Part shown: positions 6,541 to 10,271 of the stretch, one piece after another | Numbering within the stretch: the first letter of the stretch is position 1 | Layout: each line of letters starts with the position of its first letter | Assembly (NCBI RefSeq): GCF_004118855.1 | Contig: NZ_PDKF01000008.1 | Location: 434,001-498,000 of the forward strand | DNA length: 64,000 bases | Source of the DNA: Arcobacter sp. CECT 8983 | GTDB taxonomy: Bacteria; Campylobacterota; Campylobacteria; Campylobacterales; Arcobacteraceae | Direction of reading: 5' to 3' | Position numbers and translations under genes: made by a program | The notes under the pieces: generated by a model | Told to the model about the DNA's origin: nothing | The model's database searches: none | What the model saw: only the letters and a program-made list of their open reading frames with translations

Positions 6541-6862
6541 AAGGTACAACAGACAATAGCTTGAATCTTCAAGAGGAAAGTCTGGGCTGCAGTGAAGTAT
6601 GGTTCCATTTAACGAATGGCTAGGGTAACCTAAGGGACAGTGCAACAGAGAGAAGACCGCCAGTTTATATTGGTAAGGCTGAAAGGGTGGAGTAAGAGCC
6701 CACCAGCACTTTAAGTAATTTTAGTGGCTATGTAAACCCAACCAGCAGCAAGAAGAGATTGGTAATAAACTTCACATTTATGCTCTTCGCAAGATTGCTT
6801 AAGTAATTTAGCAACTAGATAAATTATTGTCAAAAACAAAATCCAGCTTACCGTTGTGCCTT
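6541..6862 (+). ncRNA. rnpB: RNase P RNA (M1 RNA), bacterial type A
   Basis: Catalytic RNA that removes tRNA 5' leaders. Boundaries come from helix P1: AAGGTACAAC at 6541-6550 pairs with GTTGTGCCTT at 6853-6862 (one G-U). The universal P4/CR-I signature GAGGAAAGTCTGGGCT is at 6573-6588; the usual CC is CT here. CAACAGAGAGAAGACCGCC (6643-6661) matches the CR-II/CR-III region, and CCAGCTTACCG near the 3' end matches the P4 3' strand region. The length of ~320 nt is in the normal range. This RNA fills most of the 450-bp space between lolA and the next gene. Confidence 0.95.
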
Positions 6863-6938
6863 ATTATTTCTAGAGTTTAAAATAATCAATATATTATTAT
6901 GAAGTAGGGTAATTTAGTTAAGTATTATAAAAAAAGTG

Positions 6939-6968
6939 AATATTTAGACACAAAAGTGTCTAAATATT
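6939..6968 (-). terminator. Strong terminator hairpin of the 6967-7377 gene
   Basis: A perfect 13-bp stem: AATATTTAGACAC (6939-6951), loop AAAA, GTGTCTAAATATT (6956-6968). Read on the minus strand it is followed by CACTTTTTTTATA, giving a good U-tract. It touches the stop codon of the minus-strand gene. Confidence 0.75.
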
Positions 6969-7377
6969 AAAATCCTGCAGAGTATCCTCTACTTGAGTGG
7001 CTTTTAATTAATCCATAATAAGTTTTATCTCTTATTTGTTTAATCATATTTCTTAGTGTAAAGATAGAAGTATTCTTATCTTTCCAAGCATTCTTTTTAA
7101 TTGTTTCTACATCAACAATTGTTCCTTGGTTTCTTAATATAGTATGGAAAATATTCATTTGAGTTTTTGTAAGACCCACATCAATATTTTTTCTATCAAA
7201 AACTTTTTTTAATACTTTATCATAGTAGAAACCTTTACCTAAATCAATTCTACTATCAACTTGCTGACTTAAAATCTCTTTTAAAGTTTCTTCAAGAGGT
7301 AAATTAAACTCTCTAGCTTTACTTTTTAGAAATCTTTCCATATCTTTTGTTAAATCAATTGTAATATTACTGCTCAT
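6967..7377 (-). CDS. Orphan winged-helix regulator with RHH-like N-terminus
   Basis: 136 residues with no receiver domain. Residues 1-45 (ITIDLTKDMERFLKSKAREF...) look like a CopG/ribbon-helix-helix or coiled dimerisation segment. Residues ~55-136 look like an OmpR/PhoB effector winged helix: LTKTQMNIFHTILRNQG (first helices), VETIKKNAWKDKN, then TLRNMIKQIRDK as a recognition helix and SSRGYSAGF as the wing. A DNA-binding repressor or activator is likely; its target is unknown. GAGGTG sits before the ATG and a TATAAT at 7403-7408 (minus strand) is a likely -10. Tandem TTGAGACA repeats just upstream suggest autoregulation. The composite domain arrangement is my reading, not a named family. Confidence 0.65.
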   Translation of the reverse strand: MSSNITIDLTKDMERFLKSKAREFNLPLEETLKEILSQQVDSRIDLGKGFYYDKVLKKVFDRKNIDVGLTKTQMNIFHTILRNQGTIVDVETIKKNAWKDKNTSIFTLRNMIKQIRDKTYYGLIKSHSSRGYSAGF

Positions 7378-7503: not shown

Positions 7504-8199
7504 TTATTTATTTTTATTCCAGAGCTTTAAAAACTCTTTTCTATTATAAATTTTAGCACCTAAATCAATCTTGTATTGTAGCTGCGGATGCCCTAAATTC
7601 CACATTTTATAATTATTACTTTTCAAATAATCATTTAATAAAACCAATTGTAATTTTCCCCAATTATTATATTTTTTATTTTTTGTAGTAAAACCTGATA
7701 ATGATGTATAAATTGAGCCAATTTGATAGCCAATCTCTCCAGAAATGAGTTTTTTGTCATTTTTTTCGTATAATTCTATACAAAATAAATTAAAGTTTTC
7801 ATATAAGTCAGAATTAAATTTAATGTTATTTAATATGTTTATATACTCTTGTGTTAACCATGAATTGGGATGATAAGTATTAATTTTATTTAGAACTTTT
7901 TCAAGATCTTGACTTATGTCAAGAATATAGTTATTTTCCTTTATCAATTTTTTTACTTTTCTAGGAATCTTAATATCATCAAAATGTAATACTGCGTAGT
8001 CAAATTGTATCTCAGGAAGTAAAACAAACTTTTCTTGGTAATACATTGATGTAGTGATAAATCCTTTTTTTGCAGCTTCAATATAAAACTCACATGATAA
8101 GTCATCACTCCAATAGTAGTTTTCTTTCATATTTGAGTATATATGATTATTTAGTATTTCTTCATTTTGTAAATCTTCTAATGTTAAATAGTAAATAAT
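7504..8199 (-). CDS. Divergent Aat-family (leucyl/phenylalanyl-tRNA-protein transferase-like) protein
   Basis: Matches the Aat fold along its length: YYWSDDLSCEFYIEAAKKGF equals the GGDLSPERLLxAYRxGIF region, IPRKVKKLIKENNY the ISRSMKRF region, SWLTQEYI the TWITxxxI region, and DLGAKIYNRKEFL the SLGAxEIPRxxFL region. Aat transfers Leu/Phe from tRNA to N-degron substrates. Residues proposed as catalytic in E. coli Aat are not kept: LIDCQ is MWNLG here and GES is SLS. L/F transfer is therefore doubtful. Start: the first ATG (8130) would delete the conserved N-terminus. AAGGAG (8210-8205) sits 5 bases before ATT at 8199 and 8 before ATT at 8196, and the frame is open from there with no ATG, GTG or TTG. 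I therefore propose an ATT start. It lies 10 bases after the ABC exporter stop, in the same operon. Confidence 0.6.
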   Translation of the reverse strand: MIYYLTLEDLQNEEILNNHIYSNMKENYYWSDDLSCEFYIEAAKKGFITTSMYYQEKFVLLPEIQFDYAVLHFDDIKIPRKVKKLIKENNYILDISQDLEKVLNKINTYHPNSWLTQEYINILNNIKFNSDLYENFNLFCIELYEKNDKKLISGEIGYQIGSIYTSLSGFTTKNKKYNNWGKLQLVLLNDYLKSNNYKMWNLGHPQLQYKIDLGAKIYNRKEFLKLWNKNK

Positions 8200-8209
8200 A
8201 AGTACTCCT

Positions 8210-9976
8210 TTATATAAGTTGGTTTTTTACAAAATCTAAATAATGTCCTTCTTCATCTTCTAGTTCATCATGGCTACCACTTTGAACTAATTGTCCTTCA
8301 TTTAAAACATATATTATATTTGCATTTTTCACTGTACTTAGTCTATGTGCAATTGTTATGACAGTTTTATTTTCTAAAAACTCTTTTAAATCATTAAATA
8401 GTTTTGCTTCTGTGTGTACATCTAATGCAGAAGTAGATTCATCAAAAATAACTACACTAGGATCTGCAATAATCATTCTAGCAATAGATAATCTTTGTCT
8501 TTGACCTCCACTAAGTCTAATTCCATGTCTTCCAACAATAGTATCTAAGCCATTTTGCATATTTAAAACAGTATCTTTTAGTTGTGCTACTTCTAAAGCT
8601 TTGAAAATCATCTCTTCACTTACACTTTCGTTTCCCATTGTTATATTAAACCTAAGAGTATTATTAAATAATATAGGCATTTGTAAAACTAAAAAAATAG
8701 ACTCTCTTAATGACTTTTTATCTATTGTATCACTACTAATATTGTTGTATTTTATATCTCCAGAGGTTTTTTCATAAAAACCTGCTATTAGTTGACTTAA
8801 AGTAGTTTTTCCACTTCCACTTGCTCCAATAAGAGCAATTTTGTCCTTTGGTTTTATTTCAAAAGAGATATCTTGTAAGGTTTTTTTATCTTTAGTATAT
8901 GAAAAAGAAAGATTTTGTATTTTTATATGAACTGCACTATTTTTTTCTAAAACAATTTTCCCTGAATGCTCTTTATTAAGTGTAAATATTTTATTTATTC
9001 TTTTCATAGCTGCACTTGCAGTTGTATAAGAGTATTGCATAGAAAGAATGTCTTGCACGGGAGTCATAATAAACCAAATATATCCAAACATTGCAAACAT
9101 CATACCAATACTAAGGTCACTATATGCAACCATTAATAACCCTGAAGCTCTAAGGATTTCAAAAGAAGCTAAAAAAACAGTAAATGAAAATCTCTCATAA
9201 GCAACACTTTTATAGTTGTACTCATTTGAAGTATTTTTTATGTTGTTGGCTTTTTTAATTGAATTTTCAAAAAAATAGTTCTCTTTATTACTTGCTTTTA
9301 TTTGTCCAAATAGTTCTAAAGTTTCTCCAATATCATTTTGAAACTCTTCTATTGCTTGATTCTCTTCTTTTTTTAATACTCCAACTTTTTTTGCTATTTT
9401 TTTTGATATAAACATTATTATTGGCTGTATTAATAAAATCATCAATCCTAATACAGGGTGAATAGCAATCATTACAATAGACACTGCAATAAGAGTTAAA
9501 ACAGAAGATACAAATTTACTAGCTCCTTTTATAATAAAGTCATCTAAAGTATTAACATCAGTTACTAAATTTGCAGCAATAGATCCACTTCCAAGGCCTT
9601 CATATTCATTCATACATACTTTCTCAAGATGTTTAATTGCTTTTTTTCTTATTTCAAAGGTTATGTATTTTGATATCTTAGTAAAAATTTTTGTTGTTAT
9701 AATATTAAAAAGAAAATATAGAAACCTCAACAGTATTACAGCTACAGTTACAATAGCTATATAATAAAAAGCATTTCCTTCTCCAAAAATAGAATTAATA
9801 TTATTTAAAAAAAAGTCTGGTTTATTAAGTAATACTTCATCTACCAAAGCAGGTAACATTAGAGGTATAGGTACACTAATTGCTATTGCTATGATTGTTA
9901 CTACTTGACCAAGAATAAGTGCTTTTTTATTTTCAAGTAGTAGTTTAAAAAGGTATTTTAGGTTTATCTTTTGCAT
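8210..9976 (-). CDS. ABC exporter, fused permease-ATPase half-transporter
   Basis: 588 residues. The N-terminal ~330 form a six-helix exporter domain (helices near 20-45, 70-95, 155-190, 265-310). The ATPase domain has Walker A GASGSGKT at 384-391, Q-loop glutamine in FLVLQMP, signature LSGGQ at 488-492, Walker B VVIFDE at 508-513 and the H-loop in TIAHRLST. All catalytic residues are intact, so it should work as a homodimer. The substrate cannot be told from sequence; MsbA-like lipid, drug or peptide exporters share this architecture. It sits 7 bases after the lipoprotein gene and 10 before the Aat-like gene, so the three are one operon. In E. coli aat lies next to the cydDC exporter genes, a suggestive but unproven parallel. 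Confidence 0.85.
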   Translation of the reverse strand: MQKINLKYLFKLLLENKKALILGQVVTIIAIAISVPIPLMLPALVDEVLLNKPDFFLNNINSIFGEGNAFYYIAIVTVAVILLRFLYFLFNIITTKIFTKISKYITFEIRKKAIKHLEKVCMNEYEGLGSGSIAANLVTDVNTLDDFIIKGASKFVSSVLTLIAVSIVMIAIHPVLGLMILLIQPIIMFISKKIAKKVGVLKKEENQAIEEFQNDIGETLELFGQIKASNKENYFFENSIKKANNIKNTSNEYNYKSVAYERFSFTVFLASFEILRASGLLMVAYSDLSIGMMFAMFGYIWFIMTPVQDILSMQYSYTTASAAMKRINKIFTLNKEHSGKIVLEKNSAVHIKIQNLSFSYTKDKKTLQDISFEIKPKDKIALIGASGSGKTTLSQLIAGFYEKTSGDIKYNNISSDTIDKKSLRESIFLVLQMPILFNNTLRFNITMGNESVSEEMIFKALEVAQLKDTVLNMQNGLDTIVGRHGIRLSGGQRQRLSIARMIIADPSVVIFDESTSALDVHTEAKLFNDLKEFLENKTVITIAHRLSTVKNANIIYVLNEGQLVQSGSHDELEDEEGHYLDFVKNQLI

Positions 9977-9983
9977 TTAAAAT

Positions 9984-10271
9984 TTATTTGCTAAGTTTTT
10001 CGCAAATATCTAATTTCATTCCTTCATGATATTCACAGTTTAATCCACACTGATAAGTGCCTCTTGTATTTAAGTTTAATCGTTCTAATTCTTTTTTTGA
10101 TTCAATTTGACACTGTTCTAAAGTTTTGAAAACTTTATATTTTTTACTTCTTTTTTCATTGCTTTTATCTGGATAAATTAAAGATGTCCAAGTCTGTTCT
10201 TTTTGTTGTCCACCAAAGCATCCTGATAAAATAACTGATGCAAAAATAGAAAGTAGTAGTGTTTTTTTCAT
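9984..10271 (-). CDS. Small cysteine-rich lipoprotein
   Basis: 95 residues starting with a lipoprotein signal peptide and lipobox LSGC (Cys18). The mature part is charged and has four further cysteines: CQIE, CGLNC and ICEK. These could form disulfides in the periplasm. No family recognised. First gene of the operon with the ABC exporter and Aat-like protein, which hints that all three serve one envelope process. Confidence 0.7.
   Translation of the reverse strand: MKKTLLLSIFASVILSGCFGGQQKEQTWTSLIYPDKSNEKRSKKYKVFKTLEQCQIESKKELERLNLNTRGTYQCGLNCEYHEGMKLDICEKLSK

Follow-up and report, generated by a model that had tools for sequence, protein, structure and literature searches.

The window analysed here, a stretch of 64,000 nucleotides from Arcobacter sp. 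CECT 8983, carries on its minus strand a gene for an Aat-fold protein, aat2 (7504-8199; stop codon 7506-7504). Read from a proposed ATT start codon at 8199-8197, which was placed by alignment of 15 genus members, the protein has 231 residues; the earliest in-frame ATG is codon 24 (8128-8130), inside a conserved block preceding Tyr29. A Shine-Dalgarno-like (SD-like) AAGGAG (8205-8210, minus strand) lies 5 nt 5' of the ATT and overlaps by one base the stop codon of an MsbA-like ABC exporter with membrane and ATPase domains (8210-9976), which ends 10 nt upstream of the ATT. Next to the exporter is a gene for a small lipoprotein of 95 aa, whose LSGC lipobox was recognised by eye (9984-10271), while downstream of aat2 a probable regulator of 136 aa gives a weak winged-helix match (6967-7377), all on the minus strand. 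The limits of the gene and the identity of the lipoprotein and the exporter agree with an earlier, sequence-only description of the locus (the original prediction). A class A RNase P RNA (251 bits) is located at 6541-6866 on the plus strand, between a lolA-like gene and the probable regulator.

Conservation of this neighbourhood was assessed by clustering 1102 ORFs from 80 Aat2 loci, in 78 of which the gene itself was recognised (L116 and L142 were missed). The ABC exporter lies immediately upstream of aat2 in 7 of these 78 loci and is a neighbour, not a conserved part of the Aat2 family. Since all seven are Arcobacter-like, the modified-peptide or envelope role that had been proposed from the exporter gains little from it. 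The broadest neighbour cluster reaches 16 of the 80 loci, and adjacency to aat2 never exceeds 7 of 78 for any cluster. Recurrent neighbours, named by eye (the small genes c20, c41 and c53, the AraC-like c7, the RlmH-like c9 and the DksA-like c3), indicated no function. In the examined flanks of the 80 loci neither ClpS nor canonical Aat was found, and a single ClpA-like AAA ORF was encountered, about 4 kb off (L114).

The Aat2 family and its relatives

As judged by its sequences, Aat2 (a name given here) is a distinct family, derived from or sister to the Aat transferases. In the genus of the window it is present in 16 of 16 sampled genomes, once as a truncated piece. It was detected at 155 bits or more in 30 of 60 genomes, its own included, and in 26 of 298 Campylobacterota (E <= 1e-12). 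A scan with one genome per species returned 125 relatives, of which the best 80 were retained; going by their record titles, six of these 80 fall outside Campylobacterota, namely three Clostridia (among them the isolate Pseudobacteroides cellulosolvens), two Spirochaetales and one deltaproteobacterium. No paper on such an Aat paralog was found in the titles and abstract beginnings of the open-access literature searched.

Of 68 non-redundant loci, 66 entered the main Aat2 alignment, which with the window protein has 67 rows; L075 (the same stretch as L013, with its TAG) and L122 were left out. A further alignment, A1, was made from 32 of 49 extracted stretches plus the window protein. For comparison, 33 of 43 canonical Aat and 18 of 20 Bpt sequences were aligned. 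The incomplete gene of L032 was left out of all family counts and L013, with its in-frame TAG, out of one family comparison.

A quick maximum-likelihood tree was built from 34 of the 67 Aat2 rows, 19 of the 33 canonical rows and eight Aat-like proteins of Spirochaetota (L194-L201, here named group 3). The tree, a check that the original prediction had suggested, sets the divergent group apart: a branch of SH-aLRT 99 splits Aat2 from the rest, canonical Aat is split off with 100, and group 3 lies between them on several branches. The profile of group 3 matches that of Aat2 with a probability of 100% and an E of 1e-46. The two share G[ED], a YTS-GF-like segment, W/F-D-x-G and a Tyr-Lys pair, and group 3, with WDLGM...YK, bridges canonical Aat and Aat2. 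Unlike Aat2, it keeps Asp at the position of E. coli Asp186 in 8 of 8 sequences and has no one-residue insertion.

Two loci depart from the usual gene structure. A Halarcobacter MAG (L013/L075, G014) has an in-frame TAG in its Aat2, reflecting either a broken gene or an assembly error. In a Sulfuricurvum MAG (L116:2853-5159), Aat2 forms the C-terminal part of an ORF of 768 aa. The initial ~530 residues of this ORF gave no Pfam match at E <= 1, and Aat2 could also be initiated on its own from an internal ATG. Among viral contigs, 41 stretches matched a search pattern and none encoded an Aat2 relative, the viral fold matches being GNAT/FemAB-like or unnamed.

Predicted fold and conserved residues

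The window protein matches Pfam Leu_Phe_trans (PF03588) over residues 68-204 with 50.3 bits, above the cut-off of 22.7, and scores 28.4 bits with the NCBIfam Aat equivalog TIGR00667, far under its cut-off of 143.55. Structure prediction, proposed earlier as a check, was carried out with AlphaFold on the 67-row alignment and gave a model with a mean pLDDT of 96. Its best PDB match is E. coli Aat (Z 21.7-22.3, rmsd 2.2-2.7 A); the top superposition places model residues 1-231 on Aat 2-215 (Z 22.3, rmsd 2.5 A, 209 aligned). The gene is thus modelled as encoding a full-length Aat fold. The earlier statement that the family match covers the whole protein does not apply to the Pfam HMM and does apply to the predicted fold.

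After Aat, the structural matches continue with S. aureus FemX (Z 14.0), Sba18, a tRNA-dependent peptide synthase (13.5), and FemXWv of Weissella (13.4). CoA-dependent GNATs rank lower in the list; their presence, the GNAT fold itself and an Acetyltransf_6 match (E up to 0.01) in 29 of the 67 members are what an ordinary GNAT N-acetyltransferase using acyl-CoA would display. Such an identity is nevertheless improbable, as the best structural matches are tRNA-dependent and the motif [RQ]xxGx[GA], the pyrophosphate loop of CoA-dependent GNAT acetyltransferases, is found in just 12 of the 67.

Site positions were mapped by profile alignment and counted over the 67 Aat2 and 33 canonical Aat sequences. 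At the position of Asp186, which is Asp in 33 of 33 canonical sequences, Aat2 has Asn201 in 67 of 67, within the segment W200-N201-L202-G203 (7591-7602, minus strand; coordinates computed from residue numbers); because group 3 keeps the Asp in all eight sequences, Asn201 is particular to Aat2. Likewise Glu156, invariant in the canonical set, is replaced by Leu167 throughout Aat2. Both substitutions had been read from the single sequence and extend to the entire family. Eleven conserved Aat positions were compared: Trp111 persists, and at eight others a single substitute residue occurs in 66 or more of the 67 sequences. The changes include Trp49 to Thr, Val or Ile, Met144 (Leu in the canonical sample) to Glu155, Phe153 to Tyr, Ala169 to Gln184, Ile185 to Trp200, His193 to Tyr209 and Thr194 (Leu in the canonical sample) to Lys210, whereas the donor-pocket positions Leu170 and Phe173 are still hydrophobic.

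The equivalent of Gln188, given as Gly in the original prediction, depends on the alignment register. Direct alignment of the Aat2 and Aat profiles treats Gly203 as an insertion and places His204 (51 of 67) or Gln (16 of 67) opposite Gln188, contrary to that reading. The route through group 3, which is gap-free to E. coli Aat in this region, puts the Gly there as originally described. On balance, Gly is favoured as the equivalent residue, with His204 or Gln204 close by.

In Trp49, canonical Aat has a residue that stacks on A76. The pocket for the transferred side chain has been described as formed by Met144, Phe153, Leu170, Phe173 and Ile185, with Glu156 and Gln188 thought to anchor the acceptor Arg or Lys and to set acceptor specificity (PMC4964394). 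With Glu156 and three of these five donor-pocket residues replaced, and a separate canonical Aat in the genome, the standard transfer of Leu or Phe to Arg or Lys is unlikely for Aat2, as had been anticipated. It follows from these replacements that the acceptor preference, and probably the donor preference, should differ from those of Aat. Trp200 and Glu155 would suit a smaller or a polar or basic donor, a suggestion weakened by the retained positions 170 and 173, which would also allow a Leu-like donor.

A catalytically dead Aat, binding N-termini or aminoacyl-tRNA and regulating Aat or ClpS, would explain why the proposed catalytic Asp is absent and the Gln probably too, and would agree with the co-occurrence with canonical Aat described below. 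However, 25 columns do not vary among the 67 diverse sequences (19 lie from residue 114 onward; Glu155, Gln184, Asn201, Tyr209 and Lys210 are among them), which points to one constrained site exchanged for another and not to loss; moreover, the bridge group keeps the Asp yet already has Tyr-Lys. A dead enzyme is therefore distinctly unlikely. Aat2 does not look like a decayed Aat, its own conserved residues appearing to replace those of Aat.

The pair Tyr209-Lys210 (7570-7575, minus strand; computed coordinates) is invariant in 67 of 67 Aat2 sequences and in 8 of 8 of group 3. Bpt proteins of the same phylum carry Gly-Tyr-Trp-x8-Tyr-Lys in 18 of 18 sequences, and the same pair lines up in ATE1 chains, likewise preceded by an aromatic residue and eight further residues; in Aat2 the corresponding arrangement is Trp200-x8-Tyr209-Lys210. 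ATE1 and Bpt (PF04377) share with Aat2 this motif within a GNAT fold and differ in having another N-terminal domain with a Cys cluster. No match of the Aat2 protein to PF04377 (ATE_C) was obtained at E <= 1, and the comparison of Aat2 and Bpt profiles with hhalign was not significant (probability 1.1%). For this reason the Tyr-Lys may be the general GNAT tyrosine motif instead of a shared catalytic device, and the likeness of Aat2 and Bpt does not establish that they have their chemistry in common.

A similar pair is known from other transferases. In FemX, Lys305 and Phe304 are essential (PMC4964394), and in a model of DhpH-C, Phe328-Lys329 lies at the site (PMC12945691). Both proteins have the GNAT fold, and their Phe-Lys resembles the Tyr-Lys of Aat2. 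The structural alignment ends at model residue 220 on FemXWv 316, which would place Lys210 near 305-306, as estimated from alignment end points and not from coordinates. FemX differs in its two GNAT domains and its peptidoglycan-precursor substrates, and no sequence match between it and Aat2 was found. The earlier suggestion that the protein may still depend on aminoacyl-tRNA fits the predicted fold, with FemX and similar enzymes as the leading matches after Aat, and the invariant Tyr-Lys. The closest known system is Aat itself (PF03588, TIGR00667; E. coli structures 2z3k, 2dps and 2cxa), with which Aat2 has in common the whole predicted fold, Trp111, the hydrophobic positions 170 and 173 and a PF03588 score over the cut-off. 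It differs by the replacement of Asp186, Glu156, Trp49, Met/Leu144, Phe153, Ala169, Ile185 and His193, by the one-residue insertion near Gln188, and by being paralogous to the canonical copy.

Initiation of aat2

The unusual start codon proposed for aat2 is a second finding, independent of the active-site change. The first 23 codons of the conserved N-terminus (IIYYLTLEDL...) contain no ATG, GTG or TTG, so that annotation limited to these codons would yield 208 aa and drop the first 23 residues. As their first codon, eight of the 15 genus members have ATT, three ATC, two ATA and two ATG. The dN/dS of codons 1-23 is 0.35 in frame compared with 0.74 and 2.08 in the shifted frames, and that of codons 24-115 is 0.51. 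A standard start lies 26-41 codons ahead of Tyr29 in 83 of 109 distinct Aat2 members; the remaining 26, this one included, have none and need ATT, ATC or ATA. The trait has changed at least six times on the quick tree, or three times counting well-supported branches alone, and it extends to the Sulfurimonas-titled loci L090, L096 and L109.

An SD-like motif lies 4-10 nt before an AUH codon in all 26 members lacking a standard start, compared with 22 of the 83 other members before their standard codon and 25 of 380 internal AUH codons; this test leans towards a match, since each gene offers several competing AUH codons, while the background is counted per codon. With only 22 of the 83 showing it, the motif set is no general prerequisite. 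Taken together, these patterns suggest that aat2 starts at ATT, as it appears to do in the window. All 15 of the 15 genus members have ATT at codon 2, which is also within SD reach, so that some of them could initiate there.

As a control, 14 ortholog groups in nine loci were examined for conserved residues ahead of their earliest standard start codon. Aat2 has 15-37 such residues in eight of nine members and none in the member with ATG, and eleven other groups have at most four. The exceptions are a small gene with a CxxCH-like motif (5-14 residues) and an antisense frame (5-84), and because of these two groups conserved upstream residues alone are no proof of a start.

It is highly improbable that the ATT start is an artefact and that initiation takes place at the ATG of codon 24. 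An ATG is common at that place in the family, six codons before Tyr29, but the protein constraint on codons 1-23, the standard starts further upstream in 83 of the 109 members and the SD-like motif in all the others argue against it. In addition, residues 1-23 are modelled at high pLDDT, with residue 1 aligned to Aat residue 2, and in L015, L025 and L054 any standard start codon is missing from this part of the gene. Expression of aat2 by frameshifting or read-through out of the ABC exporter was considered and rejected, in-frame stops being present between exporter and ATT in congeners; in L004 and L006 a single codon separates the stop from the ATT.

AUU starts occur in infC and pcnB of E. 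coli (PMC1780047). In S. aureus, conserved AUU and AUA starts with an extended SD have been reported to give about 10% (up to 30%) of AUG expression (PMC13009471). Like aat2, these E. coli genes and S. aureus infC, ccpN and cvfC1 have an AUU or AUA start, accompanied by a strong SD in the S. aureus cases; unlike in any of them, the codon of aat2 drifts over AUU, AUC, AUA and AUG within one genus. The infC of the present genome, considered as an AUU control, was read as starting with a TTG overlapping the thrS stop and consequently offers no AUU precedent here. Expression of aat2 may be low and sensitive to IF3.

Association with the N-degron machinery

Elsewhere in the same genome a canonical Aat is encoded at C8:227368-227886 (PF03588 243.5 bits, LIDCQ and GES intact), ClpS at C4:122114 with ClpA (so assigned by NCBIfam) immediately downstream, and an ATE_C (Bpt-type) protein at C4:132681. 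The canonical N-degron functions are therefore covered by other genes. That aat2 is not next to clpS or clpA was correctly noted in the original prediction; the second, canonical aat that it envisaged near these genes does exist, away from them.

Canonical Aat is present in 26 of 26 Aat2 genomes against 170 of 298 Campylobacterota with PF03588 over the cut-off, and ATE_C in 26 of 26 against 218 of 298. The hypergeometric probabilities of 26 out of 26 are 2e-7 for Aat and 2e-4 for ATE_C, figures that ignore kinship and are too strong on that account. At the threshold used, 144 of the 170 PF03588-positive Campylobacterota are without Aat2. In 14 Aat2 genomes from four phyla (by record title), chosen among those of the 80 loci, canonical Aat was detected in 13 and ClpS in 12, the exceptions being MAGs; in one of them, G337, neither Aat nor ClpS was detected. 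Among Bacillota, PF03588 exceeds its cut-off in 1 of 398 genomes, namely P. cellulosolvens, itself an Aat2 carrier. Two of the three Clostridia with Aat2, P. cellulosolvens and a MAG (L112), have clpS-clpA-aat in a row, away from aat2. Aat2 as a substitute for an absent Bpt was rejected, ATE_C being present in the genome of the window and in all 26 Aat2 genomes sampled.

The genome-wide link to canonical Aat, ClpS and Bpt is a better association than the envelope neighbours. Aat2 could instead be an aminoacyl-tRNA-dependent transferase acting outside N-degrons on a small molecule, a lipid or an exported peptide, in a GNAT/FemX-like natural-product role or in the envelope. FemX, streptothricin-type synthases and MprF as the next structural neighbours after Aat, and the exporter preceding aat2 in Arcobacter-like loci, would suit this; it is unlikely in view of the co-occurrence with canonical Aat, the clpS-clpA-aat cassette of the two Clostridia and the lack of any cluster adjacent in more than 7 of 78 loci.

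The reading preferred here, with close to an even chance of being right, is that Aat2 is an aminoacyl-tRNA-dependent protein transferase with altered donor and acceptor, an additional N-degron writer synthesised at a low level through its AUH start. As to chemistry, substrates and pathway, we infer that Aat2 would still move an amino acid from aminoacyl-tRNA onto a protein amino group. The donor would differ from that of Aat, with Trp200 narrowing its pocket and Glu155 rendering it acidic, and so would the acceptor, Leu standing in place of the Glu156 thought to anchor N-terminal Arg or Lys. Tyr209-Lys210 would take the role of FemX Lys305, instead of the Asp186/Gln188 pair of Aat. The enzyme may then act beside Aat and Bpt as an extra writer in the ClpS/ClpA N-degron pathway, its synthesis presumably kept low in many species by the AUU, AUC or AUA start. 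In short, it is predicted to be a variant of the Aat-type transferases, probably active and probably tied to N-degrons rather than to the envelope. The loss of Trp49, the kinship-blind co-occurrence counts and the exception of G337 count against the preferred reading.

To our knowledge, N-degrons are written in bacteria by two transferases, Aat and Bpt. A bolder proposal, which is rather doubtful, would make Aat2 a third one, with an Aat scaffold using Tyr-Lys, a small or basic donor, acceptors beyond those of Aat (Arg/Lys) and Bpt (Asp/Glu), and an IF3-coupled AUH start; if true, it would widen the range of N-termini that can be marked, and with what. The series from Aat through the bridge group to Aat2 illustrates how an aminoacyl-tRNA transferase changes its site, and the recurrent AUU, AUC and AUA starts with their SD-like motifs form a natural test case for non-canonical initiation.

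Some of the canonical genes show irregularities of their own. The clpA of P. cellulosolvens (L211:2239-4514) is split into two ORFs of 277 and 452 aa, between clpS and aat. Two genomes, G001 and G273, have two full-scoring canonical Aat genes each, and in G001 one of them contains an in-frame TAA.
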